Assembly (NCBI GenBank): GCA_017428385.1
Contig: JAFRQX010000045.1
Coordinates: 1-64,000 of the forward strand
Direction: 5' to 3'
Source: Clostridia bacterium
Lineage (GTDB): Bacteria > Bacillota > Clostridia > Christensenellales > Aristaeellaceae
DNA: 64,000 bases
The notes under the pieces are model-generated. The model did no database searches and was not told where the DNA came from. It was given only the letters and a program-made list of their open reading frames with translations. Below, one piece after another: positions 23,480-52,070 of the stretch. Every line of letters begins with the position of its first letter. Position 1 is the first letter of the stretch. A program made the translations under genes and the position numbers.

Positions 23480-23583
23480 ATGAAATATCGCTGTCGCGAT
23501 GTGAAATATTGATCTTCGATCAATATGAAATAAATCAGCTTCGCTGATTTGTGAAATATCCGCCTTACGGCGAATGTGATGAT
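23480..23583 (+). repeat. Hairpin string, locus 1 (GAAATAT type)
   Basis: Four short palindromes joined by tGAAATA(T): TCGC-TGTC-GCGA, TTGATC-TTC-GATCAA, ATCAGC-TTC-GCTGAT and a degenerate CCGCC-TTA-CGGCG, ending GTGATGATTACT. Confidence 0.85.
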
Positions 23584-23609
23584 TACTCTATTAAAATGAG
23601 GAAAAGGAA

Positions 23610-23635
23610 AACCGCCGGCATTTCTGCCGGCGGTT
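23610..23635. terminator. Terminator between convergent genes
   Basis: ACCGCCGGCA-TTTC-TGCCGGCGGT, perfect 10-bp stem. A-rich on the left, so it can end trpS on the minus strand. Confidence 0.8.
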
Positions 23636-23649
23636 GTTATGTGGCTGAA

Positions 23650-24759
23650 TTACTGCTTTGCGGCTTTCAGCAGCTTGTCCCATTCCTTGATGATGGAACG
23701 GTCTTCGAAGTAGTTGATCCGCATGGCTTTCCGGACACGAGCCAGGGTGGCGTTGGTGGTTTCCACGGCCTTGGCGGTGCCGGCCTGCAGGATGTCATAG
23801 ACGGCGCCGATATCATTTTCCCACTTAGCCCGCTCCGCACGGATGGGGCTCAGGGTTTCTTCCAGGATGTTGATGAGGAACTTCTTGCAGGTGCCGTCTC
23901 CGAGACCGCCGCGGCGGTAATGATCCTTCATTTCCTCCAGGTTGGCGTAGTCCGGCAGGAATTCGGCAAAGTGTGCGTCGGTGCAGAGGGCGTCCAGGTA
24001 GGTGAACACCACGTTGCCTTCGATATGGCCGGGATCGGAGATCTGCAGGTGCTGCGGGTCCGTGAACATATGGCCGTTGACCTGCTTTTTCACGGTCTTG
24101 GGGTCATCGGACAGGTAGATGCAGTTGCCCAGGGACTTGCTCATCTTGGCCTTGCCGTCCACGCCGGGCAGGCGGCGCTGGGTTTCATTTTCCGGAATCA
24201 CGGCCTTGGGCAGCACCAGGGTTTCACCGTAGACTTTGTTGAACTTTTCCACGATTTCCCGGGTCTGTTCGATCATGGGCAGCTGATCCTCGCCGACGGG
24301 AACCACGTTGGCGTCAAAGGCGGTGATGTCCGCGGCCTGGGATACGGGATAGCAGAAGAAACCGGCCGGGAGGCCTTCATCCGCGAAACCGCGCATCTGG
24401 ATTTCAGCCTTGACGGTGGGATTGCGGGAAAGGCGGGCCGTGGTGACCAGGTTCAGGTAATAGAAGGTCAGCGCGTGGAGCGCCGGCAGGGCGGACTGGA
24501 CGCAGATGGTGACCTTCTCCGGGTCGAGACCCACGGAGAGGTAGTCCAGCACGACGTTGATGATGTTATCCCGGATCTTGGCGGGGTTGTCCGCGTTATC
24601 CGTCAGGGCCTGGTCGTCGGCGATGAGGATGTTGATCTCATCGTACAGGCCGGAGTTCTGCAGCTCCACCCGACGCTTCAGGGAACCTACATAATGACCC
24701 AGGTGCAGCCGTCCAGTGGGACGGTCACCGGTAAGAATAATCTGTTTCTGATCAGCCAT
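23650..24759 (-). CDS. trpS: Tryptophan-tRNA ligase
   Basis: A cytosolic class I aminoacyl-tRNA synthetase of 369 residues that charges tRNA-Trp. The HIGH motif is HLGH at residues 19-22, after LTGDRPTGRL. The KMSKS loop is intact (DGKAKMSKSLGN, about residue 205). The conserved PVGEDQLPMIEQTREI helix identifies the Trp rather than Tyr enzyme. I chose the ATG at 24759 (MADQKQ) because GGAAGGA lies about 11 bases upstream; an ATG four codons earlier overlaps that site. The gene stands alone, flanked by hairpin strings on both sides. Confidence 0.95.
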   Translation of the reverse strand: MADQKQIILTGDRPTGRLHLGHYVGSLKRRVELQNSGLYDEINILIADDQALTDNADNPAKIRDNIINVVLDYLSVGLDPEKVTICVQSALPALHALTFYYLNLVTTARLSRNPTVKAEIQMRGFADEGLPAGFFCYPVSQAADITAFDANVVPVGEDQLPMIEQTREIVEKFNKVYGETLVLPKAVIPENETQRRLPGVDGKAKMSKSLGNCIYLSDDPKTVKKQVNGHMFTDPQHLQISDPGHIEGNVVFTYLDALCTDAHFAEFLPDYANLEEMKDHYRRGGLGDGTCKKFLINILEETLSPIRAERAKWENDIGAVYDILQAGTAKAVETTNATLARVRKAMRINYFEDRSIIKEWDKLLKAAKQ

Positions 24760-24863
24760 GACACACGTCATCCTTCCGTACTCACTTTCTGCATATTCTA
24801 CTACAAGAAAGGAACGGGGGCAAGTACAATGCTTGTACTGAAAGGGCGGAAGCAGTGCAAGAA

Positions 24864-24947
24864 AATGAAATATCGATCAGCGATCGATGTGAAATATTGT
24901 CCCTTCGGGTCAATGTGAAATATTCGTCTGCGACGAATATGATAGTT
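24864..24947 (+). repeat. Hairpin string, locus 2 (GAAATAT type)
   Basis: Three hairpins: CGATC-AGC-GATCG, TTGtCCC-TTC-GGGtCAA and TTCGTC-TGC-GACGAA, joined by TGTGAAATAT and ending TATGATAGTTTG. It lies upstream of both trpS (minus) and the secreted protein at 25105 (plus). Confidence 0.85.
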
Positions 24948-24987
24948 TGTTTACAGCCGAAGAGCAGGGTGATCGCAGCTATGCGTA

Positions 24988-25015
24988 TTGCTGAATGGCG
25001 GGAATCATGTATAAT
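24988..25015 (+). promoter_or_regulatory. Promoter of the 25105-25812 operon
   Basis: TTGCTG (24988-24993), 16-base spacer, TATAAT (25010-25015). Confidence 0.6.
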
Positions 25016-25104
25016 GACTGTAAAGCGGCCAATCAAGACAGAACAATATGCGCTACCACCGTCCGACAGAACTCACTGACAAAACGAAAGGCAGGGCAGA
25101 CAAA

Positions 25105-25491
25105 ATGAAAAAGACAATCGCTCTTTTGATCACGATCGTTCTTCTGGCAGCCTGTGTCTGTGCGCTTGCGGAAGAAGCGCGTTTCGTGACGATCAACGAA
25201 TGGCTGGACGCCAAGGGAGAATGCGGCGACTGTTATATGGTCGTGCAGGTTGTGCAGGTGCTGAATCCCGTGCTGGCACTCGTCGGGGACGAAACCGGAA
25301 CAGTCAATCTTTACACCGGGGGAGAAACAGAACTGCTGTTTGACTTCAGCGATCACCAGGACGCCGAATACTACCGGAACTGGATCTTTGTGATTTCCAA
25401 TCCGCAGTATAACGTGTTTGAAGGCACCGTGGAGCTGAAAAACTGGAAGCTGGAACGCTTCATGCCCTGCGTTTCCGGAATGGAAATGTAA
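25105..25491 (+). CDS. Small secreted protein, OB-fold-like
   Basis: A 128-residue exported protein with signal peptide residues 1-22 (KKTIALLITIVLLAACVCALA, then EE). The mature part reads as a small beta-barrel: CYMVVQVVQVLNPVLALVGD, then ETGTVNLYTG and NVFEGTVELKNWKLERF. That order resembles secreted OB-fold (single-strand DNA-binding-like) proteins. A Cys pair near residues 38-41 may form a disulfide. The ATG at 25105 is the first that gives a signal peptide; the ribosome site GGGCAG is weak. The monooxygenase-like gene follows after 30 bases. Confidence 0.65.
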   Translation: MKKTIALLITIVLLAACVCALAEEARFVTINEWLDAKGECGDCYMVVQVVQVLNPVLALVGDETGTVNLYTGGETELLFDFSDHQDAEYYRNWIFVISNPQYNVFEGTVELKNWKLERFMPCVSGMEM

Positions 25492-25521
25492 GGGTTTGCC
25501 AGATATCAAAGGAGAAAAAGC

Positions 25522-25812
25522 ATGATTGTATTGAACGTAACCTATCAGTGCAGGCCCGGCATGAGGAACCGGTTCCTGGAACAGATTACCGCGGAGGGGA
25601 TCGACGCCGCTTCCCGGGGAGAGAAAGGGAATATCCGGTATGACTATTTCCTGCCGGCAGCCGAAAAGGATGAACTGCTGCTGGTTGAAAAATGGCAGGA
25701 TGCGGACGCGCTGACTGAACATGGCCATCAGCCGCACTACGCGAGGCTGAAGGAAATCAAGGCGGAATATGTGACCGAAACCATTATCGAGCGGTTCGAT
25801 ACCGGGGAGTAA
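25522..25812 (+). CDS. ABM-domain (YgiN-like) monooxygenase-fold protein
   Basis: A 96-residue ferredoxin-like alpha+beta protein of the antibiotic biosynthesis monooxygenase family (quinol monooxygenase YgiN type). It begins with the family strand MIVLNVTYQCRPGM, has the conserved NIRYDYFLPA strand and LLLVEKWQDADALTEH, and ends ETIIERF. Such proteins form dimers; some oxidise quinols or degrade haem, and the substrate here is unknown. AAAGGAG lies 8 bases before the ATG. Beyond its TAA the frame stays open and encodes a fragment of a different protein. Confidence 0.82.
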   Translation: MIVLNVTYQCRPGMRNRFLEQITAEGIDAASRGEKGNIRYDYFLPAAEKDELLLVEKWQDADALTEHGHQPHYARLKEIKAEYVTETIIERFDTGE

Positions 25813-25929
25813 ACCGATGGGGGAAGAACCTGGACCCGGCTGCCGTATGATTATCCGTACAAAACGGAAGACGGGAAAACCGTCACGATCCCGTTCGCGT
25901 ATCTGGTGATCGGGGAAGGCATAAAGTGA
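25813..25929 (+). pseudogene. C-terminal fragment with Asp-box (BNR repeat)
   Basis: Directly after the TAA of the ABM gene and in the same frame, 38 codons read TDGGRTWTRLPYDYPYK... and end LVIGEGIK. DGGRTW is the Asp-box (S/T-x-D-x-G-x-T-W) of sialidase/BNR beta-propellers. There is no start codon or ribosome site. It is a remnant of an extracellular propeller gene fused by deletion to the end of the ABM gene. Confidence 0.5.
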
Positions 25930-25932
25930 AGT

Positions 25933-25962
25933 AAACAGGGACGACAGACGTCCCTGTTTTTT
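25933..25962 (+). terminator. Terminator of the 25105-25812 operon
   Basis: AACAGGGACG...CGTCCCTGTT followed by six T in total. Confidence 0.85.
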
Positions 25963-25970
25963 ATATGCCC

Positions 25971-26010
25971 TGCTGATTTGTGAAATACACGCCTGAGCTG
26001 AATGTGATGA
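25971..26010 (+). repeat. Hairpin string, locus 3 (decayed)
   Basis: A relic of the GAAATAT family: GCTGATTTGTGAAATACAC and CTGAATGTGATGATGG without intact stems. Confidence 0.5.
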
Positions 26011-26118
26011 TGGCTGCCGGCAGCCGAGGACATGGTTCAACTGTCATTTTTTGGAACAAAACCGCCTTGAAAGTCGTTGTATTGACAACGGGGAACGCCC
26101 CGGAAAGGAGTTGGTACA

Positions 26119-27372
26119 ATGACAAACAAGACGAAGACGAACGGAATGAAGATGATCAGACGCACGCTGGCGCTTGGCCTGTGCCTGGTGCTGCTGGCCG
26201 GGGCCGCCTGCGCGGAGAATATGACGGTTCTTTCCTCCGGCGCGGAGGACTGGCTGAACTATGAGTGCACGCTCCCGGACGGCCGGATCCTGCTGACCGG
26301 CGGAAAGATGGAAAACGGAAAAGACGGGAACTTTGTCCCGTGGATTGTCTGCCTGAATGCCGACCGGACGACAAGCTGGGAACTGATTGACCGGCAGCAG
26401 GACGGCAGCGTCTCTGCCGGACGGGCGGCGGTGCTGGAAGACGGCACCATCGCGATCAATGTCGGCGAGCATACGGAAAGCGAAGTCATTAAGTTCTATA
26501 CCAAGGACGGAGACCAGGCCCGGGAAGACCTGGTGCTGTCCCCGAACGCGATTGTGGAAGCGGCGGAAGCGAACTACCTGATGCTGACCGGTGCGGAGGA
26601 CGGAAACGAATCGACCACCGTGATTGACTATGAAGGCAAGGAACTGCTCCGGTATGACGGCGTATGCCTGCCCAACGGATACGGCTTCAAGGTAAAGGGC
26701 GAGGCGGATCCCGTGGTATACGGCACGAATGCCGCGACGGACGGCAGCGCAAAAATCATAAAGCTGTACGGCATGGAGAACAAGGCGGTCTGGGAAACCG
26801 TGCTGGATTTCCAGATGGATGAAACGGACACCGCCACCCTGTGCGAAGCCGTGAAGACCAATGACGGCGGATACGCGGCCTGGCTGCGGGAATCCTGCTT
26901 TACCCAGGGCGAGAACGGATATGAGGACGTGGATATCCTGGTGAAGTTTGACGCGGACGGCAAGCTCAAGTGGACGAGCGGCGACAGCTTCAAGAAGGAT
27001 AACCAGTATATCGGCAAGATCTTTGCTTATAACGGAAAGATTGCCGTGCTGTGCGTAACCAAGGGCGACGACGCCTATGACGACATGAATAAGCCCCAGG
27101 TGATCCGCTGGTTCGGCGATGAGGGAACGGAACGGGGTACGACGGAACTGAAGCTGAACCCCGAAGAGCTGACCGCACTGAAGGAATACCTGACCCCGAA
27201 GGATCCCGGAACGACCCGGACGCCTTCTGTTTACGGCGTGCAGCTGATCCCCATGGAGGACGGGCTGTGGGCGCTGGTTTCCTGCGGCGTGTGGGAAAAC
27301 GAAGGCGAGGAGAGCGCGGACACCATCTTTGAAAGCCATGAGCTGGTGCTGGTGAAGGTGGAAGAGAAGTAA
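26119..27372 (+). CDS. Secreted beta-propeller-like protein, unknown role
   Basis: A 417-residue exported protein with signal peptide residues 1-32 (…LVLLAGAACA, then EN). The mature chain is a series of strand pairs with recurrent D-x-x-G turns (LPDGRILLTGG, LEDGTIAINVGE, DYEGKELLRYDG, FDADGKLKWTSG, MEDGLWALVSC). These suggest a six- to eight-bladed propeller of the PQQ/WD type. No active-site or metal motif is obvious. GGAAAGGAG lies 9 bases before the ATG. A hairpin string begins at its stop codon. Confidence 0.7.
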   Translation: MTNKTKTNGMKMIRRTLALGLCLVLLAGAACAENMTVLSSGAEDWLNYECTLPDGRILLTGGKMENGKDGNFVPWIVCLNADRTTSWELIDRQQDGSVSAGRAAVLEDGTIAINVGEHTESEVIKFYTKDGDQAREDLVLSPNAIVEAAEANYLMLTGAEDGNESTTVIDYEGKELLRYDGVCLPNGYGFKVKGEADPVVYGTNAATDGSAKIIKLYGMENKAVWETVLDFQMDETDTATLCEAVKTNDGGYAAWLRESCFTQGENGYEDVDILVKFDADGKLKWTSGDSFKKDNQYIGKIFAYNGKIAVLCVTKGDDAYDDMNKPQVIRWFGDEGTERGTTELKLNPEELTALKEYLTPKDPGTTRTPSVYGVQLIPMEDGLWALVSCGVWENEGEESADTIFESHELVLVKVEEK

Positions 27373-27449
27373 GCTGCTTCGCAGCAATGAAATATCGATC
27401 AAAGATCGATGTGAAATATTCGATTTTATCGAATGTGATAGTAACTGAA
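27373..27449 (+). repeat. Hairpin string, locus 4 (GAAATAT type)
   Basis: GCTGC-TTC-GCAGC, CGATC-AAA-GATCG and TTCGAT-TTT-ATCGAA, joined by ATGAAATAT and TGTGAAATAT, ending GTGATAGTAACTGAA. Confidence 0.85.
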
Positions 27450-27551
27450 ACGCGGAGCGTATGACTGCTGGGGACTGAACCTCTGTCACTGTTCTTGAAA
27501 AGAATGTGACTGAGGGTCTGTCCCCCTGTCATGCGCTCCGCGCTTTTTTCT
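27450..27551 (+). repeat. GGGGAC-family 50-bp hairpin with T-run
   Basis: The left half (from ACGCGGAGCGTATGAC) and the right half (ending GTCATGCGCTCCGCG) pair over about 48 bases at roughly three positions in four, with GTCAC...GTGAC at the tip. It ends in CTTTTTTCTG, so it can also act as a terminator. Confidence 0.75.
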
Positions 27552-27569
27552 GTTTGTTATACTGCTTGC

Positions 27570-28112: not shown

Positions 28113-28184
28113 AGTAAGCCTCTTTTTCCAAAGGATCACCGGCTGGATGCCGATACCCTTATTGTACAGGGAGCCGGGAAATCT

Positions 28185-29066: not shown

Positions 29067-29215
29067 ACACAAGGCCTCCTTCATCGGTGATGGATGCTTA
29101 ATACACCTTGCGCGGAAAGATTACAAGACTTGAATTTTGAACCAAAATATGGTAATATACAGCCACCGGAGGAAGCAAAATCCTCTGTTTTTGTTATCAA
29201 AGAAAAAACGACATA

Positions 29216-29407
29216 AAGAGGGCGGAGATCCCGGATCTGTTTGACCCGATCATACTGCAGTACAAAATGATCCTGCGGTTCTTCAAGCTGGAGGACGCGG
29301 GCATGGTCCTGGTGCCCGGCGTGAAGGAGAAGGGCGATGTGGCCGGGACAGGGGGAATGGAGCATGCAAGGAAAATGGGCGAGGCGTTGGCGGCTGTGAC
29401 GCAATGA
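29216..29407 (+). pseudogene. FMN-reductase C-terminal fragment
   Basis: 63 codons ending at TGA 29405-29407. The stretch LEDAGMVLVPGVKEKGDVAG followed by EHARKMGEAL is the C-terminus of NAD(P)H-dependent FMN-reductase/flavodoxin-fold proteins. The N-terminal two-thirds, including the FMN-binding loop, is missing, and no start is seen. The stop overlaps the start of a hairpin string, ATGAAATAT. Confidence 0.65.
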
Positions 29408-29531
29408 AATATCGCTTCGCGAGGTGAAATATCGCTTCGCGAGGTGAAATATTGGCTTTCAGCCAATGTGAAATAAATCAGCTGCGCTGATTTGTGAAAT
29501 ATTCGACTTCGTCGAATGTGACAGTTACTGA
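29403..29531 (+). repeat. Hairpin string, locus 5 (GAAATAT type)
   Basis: TCGC-TTC-GCGA twice in tandem, TTGGCT-TTC-AGCCAA, ATCAGC-TGC-GCTGAT and TTCGAC-TTC-GTCGAA, joined by GTGAAATAT and ending TGTGACAGTTACTGAAA. Confidence 0.9.
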
Positions 29532-29544
29532 AACCTTGTGGACA

Positions 29545-29580
29545 TAAAAAAGAACCGCTAGTATCAGCGGTTCTCTTTTT
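29545..29580. terminator. Terminator of the 29595-30698 gene
   Basis: AGAACCGCT-AGTATC-AGCGGTTCT with six A before and CTTTTTAT after. Confidence 0.85.
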
Positions 29581-29594
29581 ATTTCTTAGTTGGA

Positions 29595-30698
29595 TTATTC
29601 CGGCAGGCCGGGGAACTGGACAGTCTGAGCCAGGGTGTTCAGATCGGCCTTGAAGGCGTCCAGGTCAGCCCAGACCATGCCTCCCTGGCCAACAGTGAGC
29701 TGGTAGGTGAAGTAGAGGGTCTTGTCATCTTTGGAGGACAGCACGCGGGAAGCGTACACGGAGTAGGGCTTGCCGTCCTTGTCGTTGGCGACGTACAGGC
29801 CCCATTCGCTGCCGTCATCCAGGGTAACCATGGTGTATTCAGACGCATCCCGGTCATAGAACACGTAGGAGAAGGAATTGATTTCCGCTTCAATGCGGAC
29901 GGACTTGCTGCGGTCTTCCGCGGCGGCATAAATGGAGTATTTTTCACAATCAACATGGGAAATGAAGGGCTTGGCGGTGAAGGTTTCGCTGTCGAAGTGG
30001 AAGTCGATGGAAGCGGGCAGATCCTGAACAATAGTCATGCCGGGGATGGAAACGCTGTAGAGCTTCGCACCCTTGCAGGCGTCTACGGTCCAGAACTTAT
30101 CCTTGACGACGCAGGTCATATTGGTTTTGATGCGTTCGATTTCAGCCATGAGGAGGTCGGTCAGCGTCTGTGCGCGGCTGTCTTCCGGCAGCTTCCGGTA
30201 CAAGTCCATGGAGACGCTGACATACAGCTTGGCGCCGCGTTTGATCTCATCCAGACCGAACAGCGCGAATGCGTTGCCGTAATCGGGAACAATATAGGCG
30301 GCAATCTTGTCCGAACCGTCCAGGAGGATGTTGTTCTCATCCGGGCATTTGTTCAGGAAGGTTTCATAGCTGTAGGAATCAGCACCATGGTATGAATACG
30401 AATAAGCATTGCTGACGTCCAGAAAGACGCAGTTGTTCACGCCGAACTCGCAGCACTGGGCGCCTTCGGGGCCGGGGAAGGTAACATACCAGGGTTCTTC
30501 ATATGTGCTTTCAAACAGGGAGTAGGCGGAGAAAGGAGAAATGCAGACCTGAGGATAAGACTCACTCGTCAGCAGGGTCTTGTTGAAATACATATTCTGA
30601 TCGACGGTCTCCAGGTAAGGCAGTTCAGCTTCCGCACTGGCGGCGGCGATGCCGCACAGCAGCATGAGTCCCATGAGTAAAGCGAGCAACTTTTTCAT
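29595..30698 (-). CDS. Secreted protein, tandem paralogue 1
   Basis: A 367-residue exported protein with signal peptide residues 1-21 (KKLLALLMGLMLLCGIAAASA, then EAE). The mature part has an N-terminal domain that opens LPYLETVDQNMYFNKTLL and a C-terminal domain with SIYAAAEDRSKSVRIEAEI and SEWGLYVANDKDGKPYSVYA. It closes GGMVWADLDAFKADLNTLAQ. No enzymatic motif is recognised. It is highly similar along its whole length to 31063-32166, the next gene upstream, so the pair arose by tandem duplication. Of two adjacent ATGs the second (30698) has the better distance to GGGAGG. Confidence 0.75.
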   Translation of the reverse strand: MKKLLALLMGLMLLCGIAAASAEAELPYLETVDQNMYFNKTLLTSESYPQVCISPFSAYSLFESTYEEPWYVTFPGPEGAQCCEFGVNNCVFLDVSNAYSYSYHGADSYSYETFLNKCPDENNILLDGSDKIAAYIVPDYGNAFALFGLDEIKRGAKLYVSVSMDLYRKLPEDSRAQTLTDLLMAEIERIKTNMTCVVKDKFWTVDACKGAKLYSVSIPGMTIVQDLPASIDFHFDSETFTAKPFISHVDCEKYSIYAAAEDRSKSVRIEAEINSFSYVFYDRDASEYTMVTLDDGSEWGLYVANDKDGKPYSVYASRVLSSKDDKTLYFTYQLTVGQGGMVWADLDAFKADLNTLAQTVQFPGLPE

Positions 30699-30798
30699 CA
30701 TAATCCTCCCGTTCATCTTTTTCGCAGGAATCTTTTCTGTTCACTGTATACGACGTTAATTATATGGAGGGGTTCCGTAACTGTCAAATTTTGTATAC

Positions 30799-30999
30799 AA
30801 TCGATCGCAGATCGATGTGACAAGGGGGACGACTGCTGCGCGACAATGAAATATCGATGTGACAAGGGGATAAGCTGCCGCGCGACAATGAAATATCGAT
30901 CGGAGATCGATGTGAAATATTGGCTTTCAGCCAATGTGAAATAAATCAGCTTCGCTGATTTGTGAAATATTCGACTTCGTCGAATGTGATAGTTACTGA
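30799..30999 (+). repeat. Hairpin string, locus 6 (GAAATAT type, with GGGGAC pieces)
   Basis: ATCGATC-GCA-GATCGAT, then two pieces of the GTGACAAGGGGG family, each followed by CGCGACAATGAAATATCGAT. Next come CGATC-GGA-GATCG, TTGGCT-TTC-AGCCAA, ATCAGC-TTC-GCTGAT and TTCGAC-TTC-GTCGAA, ending GTGATAGTTACTGAA. The last four repeat the order seen at locus 5. Confidence 0.88.
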
Positions 31000-31013
31000 A
31001 GCTTTTAGTGCAC

Positions 31014-31049
31014 AAAAAAGAGAACCGTTGAGTGCAACGGTTCTCTTTT
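31014..31049. terminator. Terminator of the 31063-32166 gene
   Basis: AAAAGAGAACCGTT-GAGTGC-AACGGTTCTCTTTT, perfect 14-bp stem including the A/T flanks. Confidence 0.9.
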
Positions 31050-31062
31050 GCGCTCTAAAAAC

Positions 31063-32166
31063 TTATTCCGGCAGGCCGGGGAACTGGAGCGTCTGGGCGA
31101 GGGTGTTCAGATCGCCCTTGAAGGCGTCCAGGTCAGCCCAGACCATGCCTCCCTGGCCAACAGTGAGCTGATAGGTGAAGTAAAGGGTCTTGTCTTCGCT
31201 GCCGGTCAGCACGCGGGAAGCGTACACGGAGTAGGGCTTGCCTTCCTTGTCGTTGGCAACGTACAGGCCCCATTCGCTGCCGTCATCCAGGGTAACCATG
31301 GTGTATTCGGACGCCTCCCGGTTGTAGAACACGTAGGAGTAGGAATTGATTTCCGCTTGGATGCGGACGGACTTGCTGCGGTCTTCCGCGGCGGCGTAAA
31401 CGGTGAATTCCTGACCGTCAACCCGGGTGATGAAGGGCTTGGCGGTGAAGGTCTCGCCGTCAAAGTGGAAATCGATGGAAGCGGGCAGATCCTGCACCAG
31501 GGTCATGCCGGGGATGGAAACGCTGTACAGCTTCACACCCTTGCAGGCGTCCACGGTCCAGAACTTGTTATTGACAGCGCAGGTCATATTGGCCTGGAGA
31601 CGTTCCACTTCAGCCTTGATGAAGTCGGTCAGCGTCTGGGCGCGGCTGTCTTCCGGCAGCTTCCGGTACATGTCCATGGAGACGCTGACATACAGCTTGG
31701 CGCCGCGCTTGATCTCGTCCAGGCCCAGCAGGGCGTAGGCGTTGCCGCGGTCGGGGCTGATGTAGGCGGCAGCCTTGTCGGAACCGTCCAGGATGATGTT
31801 GCTTTCATCCTCGCACTTGTTCAGGAAGGTTTCGTAGCTGTAGGAATCAGTGGCCTGGTAGTAATACTGATAGGCGTTGTTCACATCCAGGAAGGTGGCG
31901 CTGTCCACGCTGAACTCGTTGCACTGGGCGCCTTCGGGGCAGGGGAAGGTAACATACCAGGGCTCATCATAGGTGCTCTCAAACAGGGAGTAGGCGGAGA
32001 AGGGAGAAATGCAGACCTGGGGATAGGATTCAGCCGTCAGCAGGGTCTGGTTGATATACATATCCTGATCGACGGTCTCCAGGTAAGGCAGTTCAGCTTC
32101 CGCAGTGGCAGTGGCAATACCGCACAGCAGCATGAGGCTCATGAGCAGAGCAAGTAACTTTTTCAT
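31063..32166 (-). CDS. Secreted protein, tandem paralogue 2
   Basis: A 367-residue exported protein, the upstream twin of 29595-30698. Signal peptide ends CGIATATAEAE. Most differences lie in the N-terminal third (YQYYYQATDSYSYET against YSYSYHGADSYSYET) and in surface positions, while VTLDDGSEWGLYVANDK and the C-terminus are unchanged. AGGAGG precedes the ATG at 32166. Each copy has its own terminator, so the duplication included the transcription unit. The function is unknown. Confidence 0.75.
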   Translation of the reverse strand: MKKLLALLMSLMLLCGIATATAEAELPYLETVDQDMYINQTLLTAESYPQVCISPFSAYSLFESTYDEPWYVTFPCPEGAQCNEFSVDSATFLDVNNAYQYYYQATDSYSYETFLNKCEDESNIILDGSDKAAAYISPDRGNAYALLGLDEIKRGAKLYVSVSMDMYRKLPEDSRAQTLTDFIKAEVERLQANMTCAVNNKFWTVDACKGVKLYSVSIPGMTLVQDLPASIDFHFDGETFTAKPFITRVDGQEFTVYAAAEDRSKSVRIQAEINSYSYVFYNREASEYTMVTLDDGSEWGLYVANDKEGKPYSVYASRVLTGSEDKTLYFTYQLTVGQGGMVWADLDAFKGDLNTLAQTLQFPGLPE

Positions 32167-33223: not shown

Positions 33224-33230
33224 CGTTGGT

Positions 33231-33363
33231 GCTGCTTCGCAGCAATGATATGTTGATCTCCGATCAACATGATATATTTGACTGACGTCAAATATGATAG
33301 ATTGCTTTGCAATATGATATATTCGCCTTCGGCGAATGTGATCAATAGTGTTTCGGCCAATAG
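33231..33363 (+). repeat. Hairpin string, locus 7 (GATATAT type)
   Basis: GCTGC-TTC-GCAGC, TTGATC-TCC-GATCAA, TTTGAC-TGAC-GTCAAA, TTGC-TTT-GCAA and TTCGCC-TTC-GGCGAA, joined by ATGATATAT and ending GTGATCAATAGTGTTTCGGC. Confidence 0.88.
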
Positions 33364-38299: not shown

Positions 38300-38447
38300 A
38301 ATTAACAATTAACAATTTATAATTAACAATTATAGATGGTCAGAGGCTGTCATTCCGACCGGAGGCGCAGCCGGAGTGGAGGAATCCCTTACTACGTCCG
38401 AAGGACGCAATGTTAATTATGAATTATGAATTGTGAATTATGAATTA
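38300..38447. mobile_element. Heptamer-ended element 1 (MITE-like)
   Basis: Left end: four or five 7-base units ATTAACA/ATTTATA (38305-38334). Right end: AATTATG-type units (38412-38447), inverted relative to the left. The middle carries TGTCATTCCGACCGGAGGCG. The same ends and TGTCATTCCGA motif (inverted) recur at 56623-56876. No coding capacity. Confidence 0.6.
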
Positions 38448-38459
38448 TTCAGTTATAAT
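38431..38459 (+). promoter_or_regulatory. Promoter provided by the element's right end
   Basis: TTGTGA (38431-38436) inside the heptamer array, 17-base spacer, TATAAT (38454-38459), 30 bases before the 38489 gene. Confidence 0.5.
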
Positions 38460-42598: not shown

Positions 42599-42633
42599 CG
42601 TGAGACGATTGCGCACAGGAAACCACTAGATCA

Positions 42634-42664
42634 TTGTGCATTGTACATTGTGCATTGTGCATTA
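42634..42664. repeat. Heptamer array (ATTGTGC units)
   Basis: Four units ATTGTGC/ATTGTAC and a final ATTA. The stop codon of azlD (minus strand) falls in its last bases. Confidence 0.7.
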
Positions 42665-44598: not shown

Positions 44599-44625
44599 AA
44601 TATTAGAAAAACGGAGGAACAGAAA

Positions 44626-46043: not shown

Positions 46044-46055
46044 GGGTGAAATTGT

Positions 46056-46186
46056 GCTGCTTCGCAGCAATGATATGTTGACTGCGTCAACATGATATAT
46101 TGCTTCGCAATATGATATATTTGACTGATGTCAAATATGATATATTCGTCTTCGACGAATGTGATCATTAGTGTTTCGGCCTATAG
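46056..46186 (+). repeat. Hairpin string, locus 8 (GATATAT type)
   Basis: GCTGC-TTC-GCAGC, TTGAC-TGC-GTCAA, TTGC-TTC-GCAA, TTTGAC-TGAT-GTCAAA and TTCGTC-TTC-GACGAA, joined by ATGATATAT and ending GTGATCATTAGTGTTTCGGC. Order and end match locus 7. Confidence 0.9.
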
Positions 46187-46351
46187 AACAGCTGTCTGGA
46201 AACGTGCAGCGTGTGGATGCGTGTGACTGAGGGAAAGCAAGGGAAACGGCAGCCAGGGTCTGTGAAATGTTAATTTACACGGTTGTTACATTGCGGTGAT
46301 GACATTGATACACCCCTTTTGATATTCTTGTATCGAAAGGGGTGTTCGTTT

Positions 46352-48598
46352 ATGTTCCGCTATACTTACCGGGATCATTGCGTCTCTATGAAAAAGACCG
46401 TCGCTGGTCTTGTGACACTGCTTATGTGTCTGCTGTTGCTGTGCGGCTGTGCCTGCGCGGAGGAAACAGGAGTACGGATTGACGCAGAGCATTTTCCGGA
46501 TGAAGCTTTCCGGGAAGTAGTAAAAGGATATGACAGTAATCAGGACGGTATGCTCAACGGGAATGAAGCGGAGAAAGTCTATACTCTAAAGATAGAAAAT
46601 AAAGGCATTGCATCACTGAAGGGCATTGAATATCTGACGTCGCTTCAGGCACTGTATTGTCAGGATAACCAGCTGACTGAACTGGATGTGAGCCGAAACC
46701 TGAAGCTGGAAGCCTTAAGCTGTGGGAATAACCAGCTGACGGAGTTGGATCTGAACCGGAATACGGAAATGAGAGAACTGTGGTGCAGGGGAAACCGGTT
46801 GACAGAACTGGACGTGAGCGGGAATCTGAAGCTGAAGGTGCTGGATTGTTCATATTGCGGGCTGAAGGAACTGGACGTATCGCGAAATAGAGAACTGACA
46901 TTTTTGAGATGTTCTGTGAACAGCCTGAACGGACTGGACGTGAGCCGGAACACAAAGCTGAAGTCCCTGGATATTCAGATATGCGATCTGACGGAAGTGG
47001 ATGTGAGCCGGTGTACAGAACTGGAGGAACTTCGAGCCAGACATAATTGCCTGACGAAACTGGATTTGAGTCATAATCCGAAACTGGAGACACTGGACTG
47101 TGAGCATAATCAGCTGACAGAACTGGATGTAAGCCGGAACATAAACCTGAAAGATCTTGATTGCGCCTATAATCAGCTCACAGGGTTGGATGTCAGCGGA
47201 ATTACAAAACTTGATCACCTGGAATGCGGGAATAACAGGATCGAAAACCTGGATCTGAGCAATAATACAAACCTGACGTTTATTGAAATCAATAGCTGCC
47301 CGATGATCCGGCTGGATCTTAGCGTCTATCCTGATCTGGACTGGCTGAATTGTGAAAACTGCGGATTGACGAAACTGGATGTAAGCGGCAATCCTGTGCT
47401 TCGTGTGCTCTATTGCGCCGGAAACCAGCTGGAATACCTGGATCTCCGCAATAATCCCTATATCGAATATTTATCCTGTGACGGTAATCCTATGAATAGG
47501 GTAAATATCAGCTATTGTCCGGCCCTTGTGGAAATGGTACGGGATAACGATCCTGAGGAGAAAGATGGCAAGCTGACCTGGATTCAATATCACGAAAAAA
47601 CAGAAGGGGGCGGCCTGATTAAGACCATACTGTCCATAGACCCGGCGATGAAGCTGATTACCGGAATTGATCCGACAGAGACTGACGGAAAACAGCAGAG
47701 CGTGCTGTTTAATACCGGCATTGCGATCGATGAAATCCATTTTCCGGACAGTGTTTTCCGGGAAGCGGTGAGGGATTATGACCTGGATAAGGATGGCGTT
47801 CTCAGGAACGATGAGGTGGCGAATGTTGAGGAGGTTCGGCTCGATTCAAAGGGCATCGAAAACCTTCAGGGTATTGAATACCTGACCGAAGTGAAGAAAC
47901 TGTACTGCTCCCTGAACCAGTTGAAAGATCTGGACGTGAGCCGAAACAAAAAACTGGAGGTTTTATACTGCCACAGCAATCAACTGACAGAGCTGGACGT
48001 GCACCGGAATGTAAAACTGGAGGAACTGTATTGCGTGAAGAACCGGCTGACAGAACTGGATCTGAGCCGGAATACAAACCTGAAGTCTTTATCCTGCCGC
48101 GAAAACAGGTTGAAGGAACTGGACCTGAGCCATAATACCGCGCTCAGGAGTCTGGAGTGCAGCAATGTTAATCTGAAAGACATCAGCATGCTTACCCGTC
48201 TGACAACCCTGGAGATTTCGAATTGCCGGGCAGAAAACCTCGATCTCAGCCTGTATCCCCGCCTGACAGCCCTGGAATGCAGAGAATGTGGACTGACAGA
48301 ACTGGATATAAGCAACAATCTCAATCTTCATACGCTTGACTGCAGCGATAACCAGCTGACAGAACTGGATCTGAGTAAGCATGGCGGTATTCATTACCTG
48401 ACTTGCTGCGGCAATCAGCTGACAAAGCTGGACATCAGCTCTTGCTCCGCACTTGTAGAACTGGTGAGAGACACTGAATGTGAAACGGGTGTCTGGGGAA
48501 CAGGGTGGCGAAAACTGAGGAGGCAGAGTAACGGATGGGATGTCATTGACGCTATGATGTATGTTGATCCGGATGTGGAACTGATCACAGGTAACTGA
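46352..48598 (+). CDS. Secreted two-module EF-hand/leucine-rich-repeat protein
   Basis: A 748-residue exported protein, signal ending CGCACA then EE. Two modules share one plan: an EF-hand-like unit (FPDEAFREVVKGYDSNQDGM and FPDSVFREAVRDYDLDKDGV, with D-x-N/D-x-D-G calcium loops), a GIEYLT cap, then 21-residue leucine-rich repeats of type LTELDVSRNxKLEALxCxxNQ, about 15 in module 1 and ten in module 2. Cys recurs at one position of each repeat. Each module ends in the same ALVEMVRD/ALVELVRD cap. It may bind ligands or partner cells. ATG 46352 follows AAAGGGGTG; ATG 46388 is an alternative. Confidence 0.85.
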   Translation: MFRYTYRDHCVSMKKTVAGLVTLLMCLLLLCGCACAEETGVRIDAEHFPDEAFREVVKGYDSNQDGMLNGNEAEKVYTLKIENKGIASLKGIEYLTSLQALYCQDNQLTELDVSRNLKLEALSCGNNQLTELDLNRNTEMRELWCRGNRLTELDVSGNLKLKVLDCSYCGLKELDVSRNRELTFLRCSVNSLNGLDVSRNTKLKSLDIQICDLTEVDVSRCTELEELRARHNCLTKLDLSHNPKLETLDCEHNQLTELDVSRNINLKDLDCAYNQLTGLDVSGITKLDHLECGNNRIENLDLSNNTNLTFIEINSCPMIRLDLSVYPDLDWLNCENCGLTKLDVSGNPVLRVLYCAGNQLEYLDLRNNPYIEYLSCDGNPMNRVNISYCPALVEMVRDNDPEEKDGKLTWIQYHEKTEGGGLIKTILSIDPAMKLITGIDPTETDGKQQSVLFNTGIAIDEIHFPDSVFREAVRDYDLDKDGVLRNDEVANVEEVRLDSKGIENLQGIEYLTEVKKLYCSLNQLKDLDVSRNKKLEVLYCHSNQLTELDVHRNVKLEELYCVKNRLTELDLSRNTNLKSLSCRENRLKELDLSHNTALRSLECSNVNLKDISMLTRLTTLEISNCRAENLDLSLYPRLTALECRECGLTELDISNNLNLHTLDCSDNQLTELDLSKHGGIHYLTCCGNQLTKLDISSCSALVELVRDTECETGVWGTGWRKLRRQSNGWDVIDAMMYVDPDVELITGN

Positions 48599-48606
48599 AC
48601 AGGAAG

Positions 48607-48639
48607 AACGGAGGGAATGATTCCCTCCGTTCCTTTTTT
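48607..48639 (+). terminator. Terminator of the LRR gene
   Basis: AACGGAGGGAA-TGA-TTCCCTCCGTT then CCTTTTTT. Confidence 0.92.
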
Positions 48640-48690
48640 GCCCTGCCTGGCGTATAATACCTTTAATCAAAGAAGGAAGCGGGAACAAAC

Positions 48691-49059
48691 ATGAAGCTGA
48701 AGAAACTGCCCTGGGCGCTGACGGTGTGCAAACTGGATTCCACAGAGCATATTGACCTGAACGCGGATTTCTATTTTATCGGCAGGACGGATGAAGAACT
48801 TTCCCTGGTATGCAGGACGGAAAGCACACCGGAGAATACCATTGCCCGGGAGGATGGATGGCGGGGATTCCGGATTGAAGGGACGCTGGACTTTTCCCTG
48901 ATCGGTATCCTGGCCCCGATTACCGTCATTCTGGCGGAAAACAAAATCGGCATCTTCGCCGTTTCCACCTACAATACGGATTATGTGCTTGTGAAAGAAG
49001 AGAACTATGAAAAAGCCCTGGCTGCGCTGAGTGCGGCCGGATATGATGTGACAGACTGA
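48691..49059 (+). CDS. ACT-domain (CASTOR-like) protein
   Basis: A 122-residue protein of the CASTOR/ACT_7 type, with the marks FYFIGRTDEELSLVCRTE, then GWRGFRIEGTLDFSLIGILA and IFAVSTYNTDYVLVKEENYE. ACT domains bind amino acids as regulators; what this stand-alone form controls is unknown. GAAGGAAG lies about 10 bases before the ATG. Its stop codon is inside the stem of the terminator that follows. Confidence 0.85.
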   Translation: MKLKKLPWALTVCKLDSTEHIDLNADFYFIGRTDEELSLVCRTESTPENTIAREDGWRGFRIEGTLDFSLIGILAPITVILAENKIGIFAVSTYNTDYVLVKEENYEKALAALSAAGYDVTD

Positions 49060-49089
49060 AAGAAGCGGAGATTATTCTCCGCTTCTTTC
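49058..49089. terminator. Terminator overlapping the ACT-gene stop
   Basis: GAAAGAAGCGGAG-ATTATT-CTCCGCTTCTTTC, perfect 13-bp stem. Confidence 0.75.
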
Positions 49090-49094
49090 AGTCT

Positions 49095-49130
49095 GCAATG
49101 AATAATGAAAAATGAACAATGAAAAATTTA
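49095..49130. repeat. Heptamer array (AATGAAN units)
   Basis: CAATGAATAATGAAAAATGA and on: five 7-base units of the form AATGAAx, between two convergent genes. Confidence 0.65.
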
Positions 49131-49169
49131 TATGCTGAAAACTAAAGTGCAGTCATGCTAAAGAATTGT

Positions 49170-49811
49170 TTAATCGGGTTTTTTGACATATTTATCCCAG
49201 GTTCGATTATAGAACCGGATGATATTCCCAATCAGCAATGCCGCGATGATGCTGCCTTCCCGGACTCCGGCGAACTTTCCGAGGAAGACCAGGGAGAGGA
49301 TCCCGGAGACCACAATATAGAACACGTCAAAGAAAATCTTGATATTCTCATAGCGCTTGCCGGTAACCTGGCTGATCGCCCGGTTCATGGCTTCACCGGC
49401 CAGCATGGCTGCGCCGCCCTTGTACTGGATCCAGATACCCAGGCCAAGCACCACGCAGCCGACAAGCATCAGGGCAAAGCGGGCCGGATAGGAAACCGGG
49501 TTCAGGCCCTGCAGCAGGCCGCAGCAGAAGTCGGTCAGGGAACCGTAAACAAAGGCGACAATAACCTGTACCAGAATCTCAAAGGGTTTGCACTTTTTCC
49601 GGAGCAGAAGCACCTGCACCAGGATCTGGATGAGGCTCATGATGATCATCCACCAGCCGAAGGAAAGCTGCATAAGAACCAGTGATACGGTATAAGGTAC
49701 GGAAGCCACCGGCGAGGTGCCGAGCCCGGCTTTGGTGGAAAACGCGACGCCCAGGGCGGCGATGAACAGGCCGATCAGGAAAATGCCGTACTGTCTGGCT
49801 TGCTTTATCAT
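49170..49811 (-). CDS. YitT/YczE-like membrane protein
   Basis: A 213-residue membrane protein with about six helices. The first is FLIGLFIAALGVAFSTKAGLGTSPVASVPY, whose GLGTSP motif marks the YczE/YyaS/YitT group. Transport activity is suspected for the group but not established. Its ATG overlaps the stop of the diaminopropionate ammonia-lyase gene by four bases, so it may move that enzyme's substrate or product; this is inference. It ends 40 bases from a heptamer array. Confidence 0.75.
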   Translation of the reverse strand: MIKQARQYGIFLIGLFIAALGVAFSTKAGLGTSPVASVPYTVSLVLMQLSFGWWMIIMSLIQILVQVLLLRKKCKPFEILVQVIVAFVYGSLTDFCCGLLQGLNPVSYPARFALMLVGCVVLGLGIWIQYKGGAAMLAGEAMNRAISQVTGKRYENIKIFFDVFYIVVSGILSLVFLGKFAGVREGSIIAALLIGNIIRFYNRTWDKYVKKPD

Positions 49812-50989
49812 TCCACAACCCTCCTGTATCCGTCAGGATCCGTATCGCCTTCGGTGCTGATCAGGAGCACGACGGAATCTTTGTTGATCCGGAACAGGGA
49901 ACGGAGTTCATCCGACTCCAGGATGGACAAAAGCAATCCGTAGGTGACGGCGCCGGACTCCCCGGAAATGACGGCGGCGTCCGTTCCGGCAGGGTGCGCG
50001 TAGGCGCGCATGCCCTGCTCCGTAACCGCGTCATCACAGGCGCAGAAATAAGCGGAGCAGTCCCGGAGAATGGGCCAGATGGTGCTGCAGGGCGTTCCGC
50101 AGTTCAGCCCGGCCATGATGGTGACGGGATTCCCGGTGACGGTATGCGCTTTTCCGTCCCCGGCCAGCGCGGACTCATAGATGCAGGCGGATGCTTTGGG
50201 CTCCACGATGGAGACCAGCGGCGGGTTTTCCTGACTGCGGTTGATGAAATAAGCCTCGATTCCGGCAGCCATGGAGCCGACGCCGGCCTGCAGGAAAATG
50301 TGTGTCGGGGAAAGGCCGTTCATCTGGCTGACGGCTTCCGCCGCCAGGGTCAGGTAGCCTTCAATGATCCAGGCCGGATACTGCTCGTAACCGTCCCAGG
50401 CGGTATCCTGGATCAGGATCCAGCCGTTCTGTTCCGCCAGGGAGGCAGCATACCGCACTGTGCGGTCATAGTTCCATTCTGTGATTTCCGCGATGGCGGA
50501 ACCGGCTTCCTCAATGGCCCGGCGCCTGGCCTCCACGGTTCCCTTCGGCATGAATACCCGGGCCTTGCAGCCGAACAGCTTCGCCGCCCAGGAGACGCCC
50601 TTGCCGTGGTTGCCGTCCGTGGCGGTGGCAAAGGTGATTTCCCCGCAGGCCTTCCGGATATCCTCCCGGAGGAAGGAAGTATAGTCCGCTTCCGCCGGGT
50701 TCAGGCCGAAACGCTCGCAGAGGATGCGGAACATGCAGTAGCTTCCGCCCAGTCCCTTGAAGGCCTTGAGGCCGAAACGGGAGGATTCGTCCTTGACGAA
50801 TACCGCCTTCACCTGTGCCTGCTTCGCCAGGCTCTGCATGGAGACAAGCCGGGTTTCGGCGTAAACCGGGATGCTTCGGTGGAAACGGAGGGTCTCCGCT
50901 GCCTTTTCATCAGAGAAGGCGGCCATATCCCCGTTGGGAACAGGCTCCTGACCCAGGACGCTGATCCGGTCGAAATGCAGTTCTTTCAC
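49808..50989 (-). CDS. dpaL: Diaminopropionate ammonia-lyase
   Basis: A 393-residue PLP enzyme (YgeX type) that splits 2,3-diaminopropionate to pyruvate and ammonia. The PLP lysine is Lys78 in FGLKAFKGLGGSY. The phosphate-binding and substrate regions follow: TFATATDGNHGKGVSWAAK, the glycine-rich LQAGVGSMAAGI, and the ending STEGDTDPDGYRRVV. The length is normal for the family. Translational overlap with a membrane protein gene makes a two-gene unit. The likely role is use of diaminopropionate as nitrogen or carbon source, or its detoxification. Confidence 0.92.
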   Translation of the reverse strand: MKELHFDRISVLGQEPVPNGDMAAFSDEKAAETLRFHRSIPVYAETRLVSMQSLAKQAQVKAVFVKDESSRFGLKAFKGLGGSYCMFRILCERFGLNPAEADYTSFLREDIRKACGEITFATATDGNHGKGVSWAAKLFGCKARVFMPKGTVEARRRAIEEAGSAIAEITEWNYDRTVRYAASLAEQNGWILIQDTAWDGYEQYPAWIIEGYLTLAAEAVSQMNGLSPTHIFLQAGVGSMAAGIEAYFINRSQENPPLVSIVEPKASACIYESALAGDGKAHTVTGNPVTIMAGLNCGTPCSTIWPILRDCSAYFCACDDAVTEQGMRAYAHPAGTDAAVISGESGAVTYGLLLSILESDELRSLFRINKDSVVLLISTEGDTDPDGYRRVVE

Positions 50990-51011
50990 AGCGGCTTTGC
51001 TCCTTGTCTGT

Positions 51012-51866
51012 TTATTTTTCCCCGCGGACGATCATGGTGACGGAAACGGAGGTGTCCCACTGGCGGAGACCTTCCCGGTACAGGCGGAGGCGCTCGTTGT
51101 ATTTGGCATTGATGGCGGCAACAGCTTCCCGGTCGTTTTCCGCGTGGGCGGAGGCGATTGCTTCCAGGTCGCCCTGGCGATTGGCTTCGATCATCCGCTC
51201 CGCCATTTCGGCGGGATACTTCGGATCATCCGGTGTGAGATCGATAACCGCGTATCCGGTGGAAACATTGCGGAAACCGTGCTGTTCCGCGGAGGCGGGA
51301 ATGCCGGCTTCAGACATGGGATACTTGCAGACACCGTACTTTTCCCGGGGATCCTCGTCCTCCGGAAGACTGTTCCAGAAGGCTTCCTCGGCGGCGGTGG
51401 TTTCCAGGCAGGGAGCTGTGCTGTGCAGGCCTTTCCGGGCGGAGAGACACAGACAGACGCCGCCGGGCTTCAGGACCCGCCGCTGTTCTCCCCAGAAGGC
51501 GGAGGGTTCCACATGCTCCTGCACGGTGTTGGAGATGGTGACGTCAAAAGTATTGTCATCAAAGGGGAGAGCGGTGGCATCGCCTTCCAGGAATTCAACC
51601 CCGGGGATGTTTTCCCGGCCGAAGGCCACGAACCGGCTGTCCCGGTCTATGGCGGTAATCTTCGCGTTGGGATACCACCTGTGGAGGGCGGCGGCGAGGG
51701 CTCCGGGGCCGCAGCCGATTTCCAGGATTTTCAGGTCGGCGTGCCTTTCCAGCCGGAAGGCTTTCTGGTACTGGTCCAGGAACCTGTCGTCGAATCTCAG
51801 CTGGCGGCTCAGGTACAGTGTCATCACGCCCTGGATGTTGTCGGACCAGATGTTGTTGGTGCCCAT
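51012..51866 (-). CDS. Class I SAM-dependent methyltransferase
   Basis: A 284-residue methyltransferase. Motif I is LKILEIGCGPGALAAALHRW (about residues 45-65). The acidic end of strand 2 is ITAIDRDSRF, then EGDATALPFDD, TISNTVQEHVEP and VLKPGGVCLCLS. The C-terminal 110 residues are a helical, acidic domain (AEMAERMIEANRQGDLEAIA). The UbiE/Methyltransf_11 look suggests a small-molecule target. AAAGGAGATG precedes the ATG. It sits 22 bases upstream of dpaL, so the three genes may form one operon. Confidence 0.85.
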   Translation of the reverse strand: MGTNNIWSDNIQGVMTLYLSRQLRFDDRFLDQYQKAFRLERHADLKILEIGCGPGALAAALHRWYPNAKITAIDRDSRFVAFGRENIPGVEFLEGDATALPFDDNTFDVTISNTVQEHVEPSAFWGEQRRVLKPGGVCLCLSARKGLHSTAPCLETTAAEEAFWNSLPEDEDPREKYGVCKYPMSEAGIPASAEQHGFRNVSTGYAVIDLTPDDPKYPAEMAERMIEANRQGDLEAIASAHAENDREAVAAINAKYNERLRLYREGLRQWDTSVSVTMIVRGEK

Positions 51867-51967
51867 GGAACACTCATCTCCTTTGATTTGGAATTAGACT
51901 TGAAATGTTGAGAATCATGATAGCACGAAACGGGACGCAGGGGAAGGAAAAAATAGCCGTTTTACGG

Positions 51968-52070
51968 CAGCGATATGTTGATCTTCGATCAATGCGATAT
52001 ATTCGGCTTTGCCGAATGCGATATATTTGACTGACGTCAAATGTGATATATTCGCCTGCGGTGAATGTTA
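51968..52070 (+). repeat. Hairpin string, locus 9 (GATATAT type)
   Basis: TTGATC-TTC-GATCAA, TTCGGC-TTT-GCCGAA, TTTGAC-TGAC-GTCAAA and a decayed TTCGCC-TGC-GGTGAA, joined by GCGATATAT. It lies between divergent genes and its end abuts a TATAAT at 52074-52079. Confidence 0.88.

Follow-up and report, generated by a model that had tools for sequence, protein, structure and literature searches.

Gut-1-like arrays of heptads and covarying mini-hairpins behind clostridial stop codons: a predicted RNA family that may be a dispersed DNA repeat

Repetitive extragenic palindromes (REPs) and bacterial interspersed mosaic elements (BIMEs) form hairpins between genes, often 3′ of them, and are characterised by sequence-conserved stems, convergent pairs and REP-associated tyrosine transposases (RAYTs). 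A string of small hairpins has also been described as an RNA: Weinberg et al. (2010; PMC2864571) placed Gut-1 among the non-coding RNAs most likely unaffiliated with mRNAs, the table listing it as RNA ‘Y’ (certainly), cis-regulatory ‘n’ (probably not) and ‘human gut only’, and the evidence given where that paper deals with it is comparative only. Intergenic repeats of a 7-nt word are known from Xanthomonas and Nostoc, where they are G-rich, form G-quadruplexes, prefer four units and have sense-strand copies that lie ≤50 bp from the stop codon or in some cases overlap it (Rehm et al. 2015; PMC4692102), and from Beggiatoaceae, where horizontal spread of TAACTGA sets has been suggested, by a mechanism that was not evident (MacGregor 2015; PMC4679880). 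Here we describe arrays found in a stretch of 64,000 nucleotides (‘the window’) from a Clostridia bacterium of the Aristaeellaceae (GenBank assembly GCA_017428385.1, contig JAFRQX010000045.1, positions 1 to 64,000). They are a dispersed, non-coding intergenic repeat in which a 7-nt word alternates with about four short palindromes, mainly directly behind stop codons; within the literature library and wordings searched, no earlier description of these arrays is known to us.

The arrays resemble Gut-1 in having tandem small hairpins with UGAAAU between them, as seen in the model alignments, but whereas the account of Gut-1 in PMC2864571 is of a stand-alone RNA of the human gut only, they are a multi-copy intergenic repeat of clostridia, one in which the spacers come in several variants, leader hairpins occur and arrays are swapped. 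With the heptads of Rehm and MacGregor they share a 7-nt unit that is dispersed and over-represented between genes. Those heptads, as their papers present them, are directly tandem, G-rich in the case of Rehm and mostly upstream of start codons in that of MacGregor, whereas here palindromes stand between AT-rich words and the arrays lie mainly behind stops.

A full array comprises an optional leader hairpin, AA, a 7-mer plus hairpin repeated usually four times, and then GTGAnAnnTACT, although this end, which the initial annotation of the window took to be fixed, is only a majority consensus of the RTGAAAT class. It takes the place of the U-tract in which an intrinsic terminator would end; terminators of adjacent genes may sit beside an array. 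The 7-mer occurs as RTGAAAT, RTGATAT or RTGAATT, and is mostly constant inside one array while the stems vary; of the spacers GAAATAT and GATATAT, also described as fixed, the second is better described as RTGATAT, and individual spacers deviate. A unit detector, with the pattern TGAWA[TG] - palindrome - nTGA, recovered 26 spacer-hairpin units between 23 and 53 kb of the window (GC 53.7%), against a mean of 0.23 and a maximum of 2 in 30 dinucleotide shuffles, and 243 units in 401 kb of the same organism's genome, against 1 in the reversed sequence. The strings of paired mini-hairpins first noticed in the window are therefore real, and all five TTCG-slot hairpins quoted from them are present, but eight rather than nine loci are clear arrays (at 23.5–52.1 kb, all on the + strand), the ninth being at most a truncated remnant near 30848–30860, and the 3–6 hairpins claimed for each become 2 to 5 by the detector, plus a leader hairpin in some. 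Four is the commonest number of hairpins in the own genome (40/78 array groups); single units make up 14/78 groups, some of them spurious.

The first array of the window (match 23478–23562) is Gut-1 RNA, RF01706, at 53.1 bits with a cut-off of 50 (Rfam release 15), so that the initial statement that the strings match no repeat family has to be given up, though Rfam files the family as an RNA and not as a repeat. The other window arrays scored 26.7–46.4 bits, under the cut-off, in the window search, and the stretch 29402–29479 in array 4 reached 54.6 bits in the genome-wide search. In the own genome, where 150/368 candidates were scored, at least 56 matches reached E ≤0.001; 20 of them passed the cut-off, and a few overlap inside one array. 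The four array-rich, near-complete genomes have 46 to 56 each. E. coli, one of 14 controls, also matches RF01706 at E 0.001, below the cut-off, so weak matches alone are not proof; under a stricter filter a match was present in 8/45 genomes of the genus and in 74/297 genomes and 41/125 genera of the order. A strict three-spacer pattern recovered at least 103 stretches across named genomes, with two or more units in 71/111 stretches (8 viral included) among the matches listed. For this pattern carriage by viruses was discarded, none of the 8 viral stretches having two units. True array records are titled as metagenome-assembled genomes of Clostridia, Christensenellaceae and Oscillospiraceae, several of them from the gut of sheep, goat, deer or buffalo and not from the human gut alone. 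One record titled Methanosarcinaceae archaeon (L177, DQIP01000129.1), which may be mis-binned, contains four hairpin units.

Stems of the arrays change in a paired way, as originally reported. In 69 distinct 17-nt hairpins of the own genome 98.3% of cells are paired, a percentage partly built in because the hairpins were chosen by pairing; 7/7 pairs have changed on both sides, and the covariation score is 0.768, compared with 0.189 in shuffles (0/500 reach it) and ≤0.141 when slid. Nor are the stems a few copied cassettes, since the 229 chained units of this genome contain 185 distinct hairpins. Pairing is nevertheless almost free of wobble. Over 558 chained units (229 from the own genome, 75 from the genus, 254 from elsewhere) the interior pairs are 2516 Watson-Crick, 20 G.U, 31 A.C and 34 other; G.U thus amounts to 0.8% and is no commoner than A.C, even though the detector penalises it less than other mismatches and should favour it. 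Counted over distinct hairpins, there were 21 G.U and 39 A.C in the genus (422 hairpins; two-sided p 0.03), 8 and 14 elsewhere (204 hairpins; p 0.29), and 29 and 53 in the pooled 626, where p is 0.01 but the sequences are related and non-independent. In none of these sets does G.U stand clearly above A.C, as wobble-tolerant selection on RNA would have it. By comparison, 66 of 875 listed pairs (7.5%) were G.U in 42 tRNAs of the fetched loci, a control usable for the share of G.U and not for A.C, as ARAGORN brackets omit mispairs, and 278 terminator-like hairpins had 48 G.U and 33 A.C against the 20 and 31 of arrays (p 0.03, a weak contrast). An A.C on one strand is a G.T on the complementary strand, so if either strand is favoured it is the bottom one. 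Array covariation is real, but lacks the wobble signature of selection on sense RNA.

Arrays differ between orthologous gene ends, both in presence and in content. The spacer between pgk and tpiA (named by NCBIfam) has an array in 3/30 genus loci, those of genomes G000 and G031 being alike and that of G002 unrelated; it is ≤40 nt long in 14/30 loci and consists of other sequence in the remainder. In G001 (L295) and G027 (L297) a longer, imperfect inverted repeat, GGAGATyCTTCGAC ... GTCGAAGrATCTCC, stands where others have the array or nothing, and a similar one follows the array of G002 (L298), the same gene end taking different repeats. A second gene end could be placed in 9/30 fetched loci, five with an array (G000, G031, G021, G002 and G027, in the last of which RTGAATT spacers were recognised by eye) and four lacking one, among them G001, both flanks of which are >98% identical to those of G000. 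Empty sites, which the initial annotation proposed to seek at related loci, therefore exist, and array-free and swapped sites alike fit its suggestion of a non-autonomous element with exchangeable stems. When the 194 arrays of four genomes were compared, 104 orthologous pairs could be recognised from both flanks. In 70 of these pairs each flank was ≥90% identical: the whole set of hairpins was shared in 33, part of it in 31 and no hairpin in 6. Pairs taken among three genomes are not independent of one another, and as some intergenic regions have two arrays, a few of the pairs without a shared hairpin may compare neighbours. In one sharp replacement between G001 and G031, three hairpins and the spacer type differ, while the last hairpin after them is the same and the terminator before the array is the same bar one loop base. 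In other aligned swaps the adjoining flank is also different, as recombination with a diverged allele could produce. Across 42 fully conserved pairs there were 25 one-sided and 4 two-sided pair changes, the latter being 4 cells in two distinct hairpins; with so few two-sided changes, stepwise compensation for every arm was rejected, and the 4:25 ratio leaves simple fold-back correction of every mismatch equally unsupported.

The gene end itself is often part of the array. Leader hairpins ending ≤5 nt from the first heptad (score ≥5) precede 69/171 arrays of three or more units, compared with 18/513 controls, and at score ≥8 the figures are 41/171 and 1/513 control positions. Where the upstream gene is co-oriented (53 leaders, score ≥5), the stop codon falls within the 5′ arm of 17 leaders, the loop of 7 and the 3′ arm or first spacer of 12, and precedes the hairpin in the other 17. 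Examples are CCAATGAAGTAGAAGAA-TAA-TTCTTCTACTTCATTGG (protein ending ..ANEVEE, then stop), a perfect leader of 19 bp (protein ending ..MKHTW, then stop) and GAAGTAATTC..GAATTACTTC at pgk in G002. Where sister species carry different arrays at one gene, their leaders differ as well; at one gene of G000 and G031 both the arrays and the last codons are different, and each leader pairs with the last codons of its own gene, bar one mismatch in G031. The 5′ arm of the pgk-tpiA leader, TGAGAAAC, is also found in array-free G004. In the pair G000_18/G001_27, however, both leader arms differ and the preceding sequence is nearly identical, so host sequence alone does not always supply the 5′ arm. Among 36 genes without a sense array that have a stop-spanning hairpin (score ≥7) in the own-genome stretches, 3 have a T-tract, 2 a TGAWWT word and 31 neither, and many of these hairpins, by eye, run into plain heptads.

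Plain heptads, repeated in tandem, are the dominant short-period repeat. Of 46 tandem tracts of period 4–12 in the 401 kb, 45 have period 7, and 37 of these are intergenic, with 19/37 within 60 nt of a stop; they are heptads repeated between genes near stops in the manner of the described families, whereas array 7-mers are separated by hairpins. A hairpin (score ≥8) abuts 18/89 tract ends against 3 controls. Tract density is 7.6–12.8 per 100 kb in stretches of the four array-rich genomes and 0.4 per 100 kb in other genus loci, a value biased by the resampling of three loci. A genome-wide search for three RTGAATT units, with one mismatch allowed and overlapping matches counted, gave 210 matches in G000, 284 in G001, 106 in G002, 118 in G021, 221 in G027, 331 in G031, 11 in G007 and 0 in G043, with 3, 0, 0, 0, 0, 1, 0 and 0 in the backward control. 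In array-negative genomes the counts are 70 (G017), 82 (G036), 34 (G038) and 20 (G030), 1–2 in three and none in 30. Ten or more matches thus occur in 7/8 array genomes and 4/37 others (Fisher p 5e-5, uncorrected for kinship), and shared ancestry could give such a link without a common mechanism. Gut-1 hairpins and heptameric intergenic repeats, each unexplained so far, may join as one system, comparable across related genomes. In the window, plain tandem heptads lie at 38409–38448, 42632–42663, 56842–56874, 59863–59896, 61736–61770 and 61995–62026, with words that include RTGAATT, GCATTGT and AATGAAC.

Loop sequences bear on which strand may fold. Three-nt loops are TNC in 155/266 cases in the genus and 57/107 elsewhere, 4-nt loops are TNNC in 49/121 and 52/80, and nearly all of these loops are closed by C-G. 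On the complementary strand they become GNA and GNNA loops, and by the GNNA rule single-stranded DNA hairpins with such loops are very stable. One such sequence is d(GCGAAGC), a DNA mini-hairpin of extraordinary stability described by Hirao et al. (cited in PMC11292364). Computed energies of 594 hairpins favour the bottom strand with DNA values (197 better, against 60 for the top), and do so with RNA values as well (175 against 72). The four-base loops can also be read as UNAC loops of sense RNA, and the energies differ little; a DNA-hairpin reading based on loop rules is suggestive only.

On balance the arrays are probably, though by no means surely, a dispersed REP-like DNA repeat, the same thing as Rfam's Gut-1 RNA, with palindromes made or renewed at the DNA level. 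What is observed is their copy number and patchy spread, sites with and without an array, orthologous sites that differ by a whole array or by single hairpins, Watson-Crick stems in which wobble pairs are not preferred, leaders that often include the local gene end, and an abundance of plain 7-mer tracts in most array genomes. Taken together, palindromes free of wobble, gene-end leaders, heptads and the turnover of arrays speak more for a repeat system at the DNA level than for an RNA gene. Palindromes would arise or be renewed when a single DNA strand folds back and is copied on itself, by template switching or snap-back synthesis; the array would spread by insertion or recombination at gene ends, and the heptad may be the part that a trans-acting factor recognises. 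Where an array is transcribed, the mRNA would gain several hairpins at its 3′ end, as with REP elements, perhaps as a by-product or secondary use. Template switching in DNA can create and repair stems in a single step (Monttinen and Loytynoja 2022; PMC8794818), and the likeness to such hairpins offers a DNA-level route to perfect stems with paired changes, although they were studied in RNA genes, not repeat elements, and the abstract of that work speaks of neither heptads nor dispersal. Compensatory change, which the initial annotation read as the mark of selection on a folded RNA, is hence no proof of it, given also the 20 G.U against 31 A.C and the 25 one-sided against 4 two-sided changes; its observation is confirmed and its interpretation partly supported. 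More elaborate, and in our estimate distinctly improbable, is a dedicated DNA-synthesising activity that writes the strings at gene ends, the 3′ strand folding back and copying the gene end as the leader before a templated 7-nt word alternates with fold-back hairpins. It would combine features of telomerase with the kind of stem-loop synthesis carried out by polymerase theta, and plain heptad tracts would be its product without fold-back; Pol theta does stem-loop synthesis in vitro and the E. coli Klenow fragment does not (PMC11292364).

Several observations weigh against a DNA repeat of this kind. The upstream gene is co-oriented with the array in 102/152 cases, a bias that an RNA role would lead one to expect, and array strand follows no simple rule relative to the replication fork (38 with, 67 against, p 0.006, among the matches listed, with dnaA as stand-in for the origin). 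In the 42 conserved pairs stems differ by 1.4% per nt and loops by 5.4%, so that stems are about four times slower and selection may act on them, and fold-back correction alone would give an excess of two-sided changes where 4 were seen against 25. Stop-spanning hairpins occur in 66/686 genes without a sense array as well as in 25/107 with one (p 1.3e-4); as a feature of the genome they are not peculiar to arrays, and some leader hairpins may be older than the array beside them. The link with heptads may hold only in the own genus, array-bearing loci of other clostridia having 9 tracts in 500 kb (1.8 per 100 kb) and G043 having a single array match but no RTGAATT match. The arrays could be linked to no transposase or partner gene: no protein family recurs beside them among 356 predicted proteins of own-genome stretches, and Y1 transposases do not track them (Y1_Tnp in 7/8 array genomes and 21/37 others, p 0.13).

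Sense bias and slow stems make a functional RNA element at the 3′ end of mRNAs the strongest rival, one that we regard as possible but rather unlikely. Its hairpins would present unpaired heptads at even spacing to an RNA-binding protein, or protect the 3′ end of the message from exonucleases, so that pairing would matter and stem sequence would not; a heptad largely constant inside an array of varying stems, and the predominance of four-hairpin arrays, are as it would predict. Against such an element stand the absence of any G.U preference beside the 7.5% of tRNAs, the 50/152 arrays antisense to their upstream gene, and arrays swapped or missing at near-identical loci. A REP/RAYT-type element, in which a Y1 (HUH) transposase would mobilise the palindromes in single-stranded form, seems to us improbable, for all its likeness in being extragenic, hairpin-forming, often 3′ of genes and present in many copies, with convergent pairs ~40–90 nt apart, a class-specific short motif, Y1 proteins present and GNA/GNNA loops on the other strand that are very stable in single-stranded DNA. 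REP stems are conserved in sequence, whereas most stems here differ (185 distinct hairpins of 229); the Y1 distribution does not follow that of the arrays, G021 (~70% complete) having 14 array matches and no Y1 match; and no recurrent family flanks them. One Y1-transposase domain protein (G000 C35:10472-10801), the only Y1 gene whose surroundings were read, lies ~1 kb from the pgk-tpiA array. Least credible, and very improbable in our view, is a trans-acting small RNA gene, as which Gut-1 was predicted by Rfam and by Weinberg: conserved pairing, an Rfam score above the cut-off and the entries RNA ‘Y’ and cis-regulatory ‘n’ in the table of PMC2864571 speak for it, but a genome with 46 to 56 matches, mostly directly behind different genes and with most hairpins differing from copy to copy, is hard to reconcile with one. 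If the predicted RNA family is, as seems probable, a DNA repeat, then its covariation, normally the gold standard for functional RNA, would come at least partly from a DNA process. The arrays raise the question whether wobble counts belong in covariation tests, and they are natural material on the origin and renewal of perfect palindromes.

Placement was analysed with a home-made gene finder in the 152/157 arrays (two or more units, three genomes) for which both neighbours could be called. Relative to the array, the upstream and downstream genes were sense/sense in 70 cases, sense/antisense in 32, antisense/sense in 21 and antisense/antisense in 29. Arrays start a median of 12 nt (the 70) or 17.5 nt (the 32) after the stop of a sense upstream gene, and in some the first TGA doubles as the stop codon. 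Divergent-gene gaps contain 21/152 arrays compared with 92/439 gaps (p 0.06), only a hint of avoidance. Convergent array pairs ~40–90 nt apart recur; in L058 (G000 C25:1-14000) four consecutive same-strand genes have three such pairs between them, with gaps of ~48–65 nt. A fork-orientation rule was dropped, as same-orientation blocks resembled replichores yet there was no switch at dnaA.

The arrays and related elements of the window, seven arrays from the unit detector and the eighth from a sub-threshold Rfam match, are as follows.

Array 1: 23481..23587, + strand, four hairpins with RTGAAAT spacers (detector; Rfam Gut-1, 53.1 bits)
Array 2: 24866..24950, + strand, three hairpins (detector; Gut-1, 42.9 bits)
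Array 3: 27388..27446, + strand, two hairpins (detector)
Array 4: 29405..29529, + strand, five hairpins (detector)
Array 5: 30889..30997, + strand, four hairpins, amid paralogues 29595-30674 and 31063-32166 (detector)
Array 6: 33230..33349 (detector 33246-33349), + strand, leader and four hairpins (Gut-1, 39.8 bits)
Array 7: 46055..46172 (detector 46071-46172), + strand, leader and four hairpins, RTGATAT spacers
Array 8: about 51968..52064, + strand, mostly GCGATAT spacers (Gut-1, 29.2 bits, sub-threshold)
Related element: 49052..49125, + strand, a palindrome then plain 7-mers with no interposed hairpins
Plain heptad tract RTGAATT: 56842..56874, + strand, same grammar as the array spacers

Gene neighbours in the window were called with the same gene finder. 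Array 1 begins 3 nt past the stop of a + strand gene (22581-23477) and ends with GTGATGATTACT, and array 2 sits within a divergent pair, trpS (− strand; TIGR00233) and gene 25126 (+ strand). Array 3 starts 15 nt after the stop of gene 26119-27372; its orthologues in G001 and G031 have four hairpins, including both of its own. Three hairpins of array 4 recur in array 5, identical or with a loop difference only. Array 6 has the leader TGCTGC-TTC-GCAGCA and spacers of RTGATAT type, one being ATGATAG; the first spacer of array 7 lies 27 nt downstream of the stop of an aldo/keto reductase gene, and the spacers of array 8 start at 51970, 51994, 52018 and 52043. In the related element, 49052–49095 is a 20-bp perfect palindrome whose 5′ arm contains the stop of gene 48691-49059, followed by AATGAAT AATGAAA AATGAAC AATGAAA; cmscan gave sub-threshold microRNA matches to 49052–49125 on both strands. 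A tRNA call by ARAGORN at 50400–50492 (+ strand), of undetermined type and with a two-base anticodon, is probably spurious. The two paralogues (− strand), of ~360 aa and each adjoining arrays, had no Pfam or NCBIfam match when the longer open reading frames were searched. The gene after array 7 (46283-48598, + strand) encodes a leucine-rich-repeat protein like internalin J (NF033187, under its cut-off).

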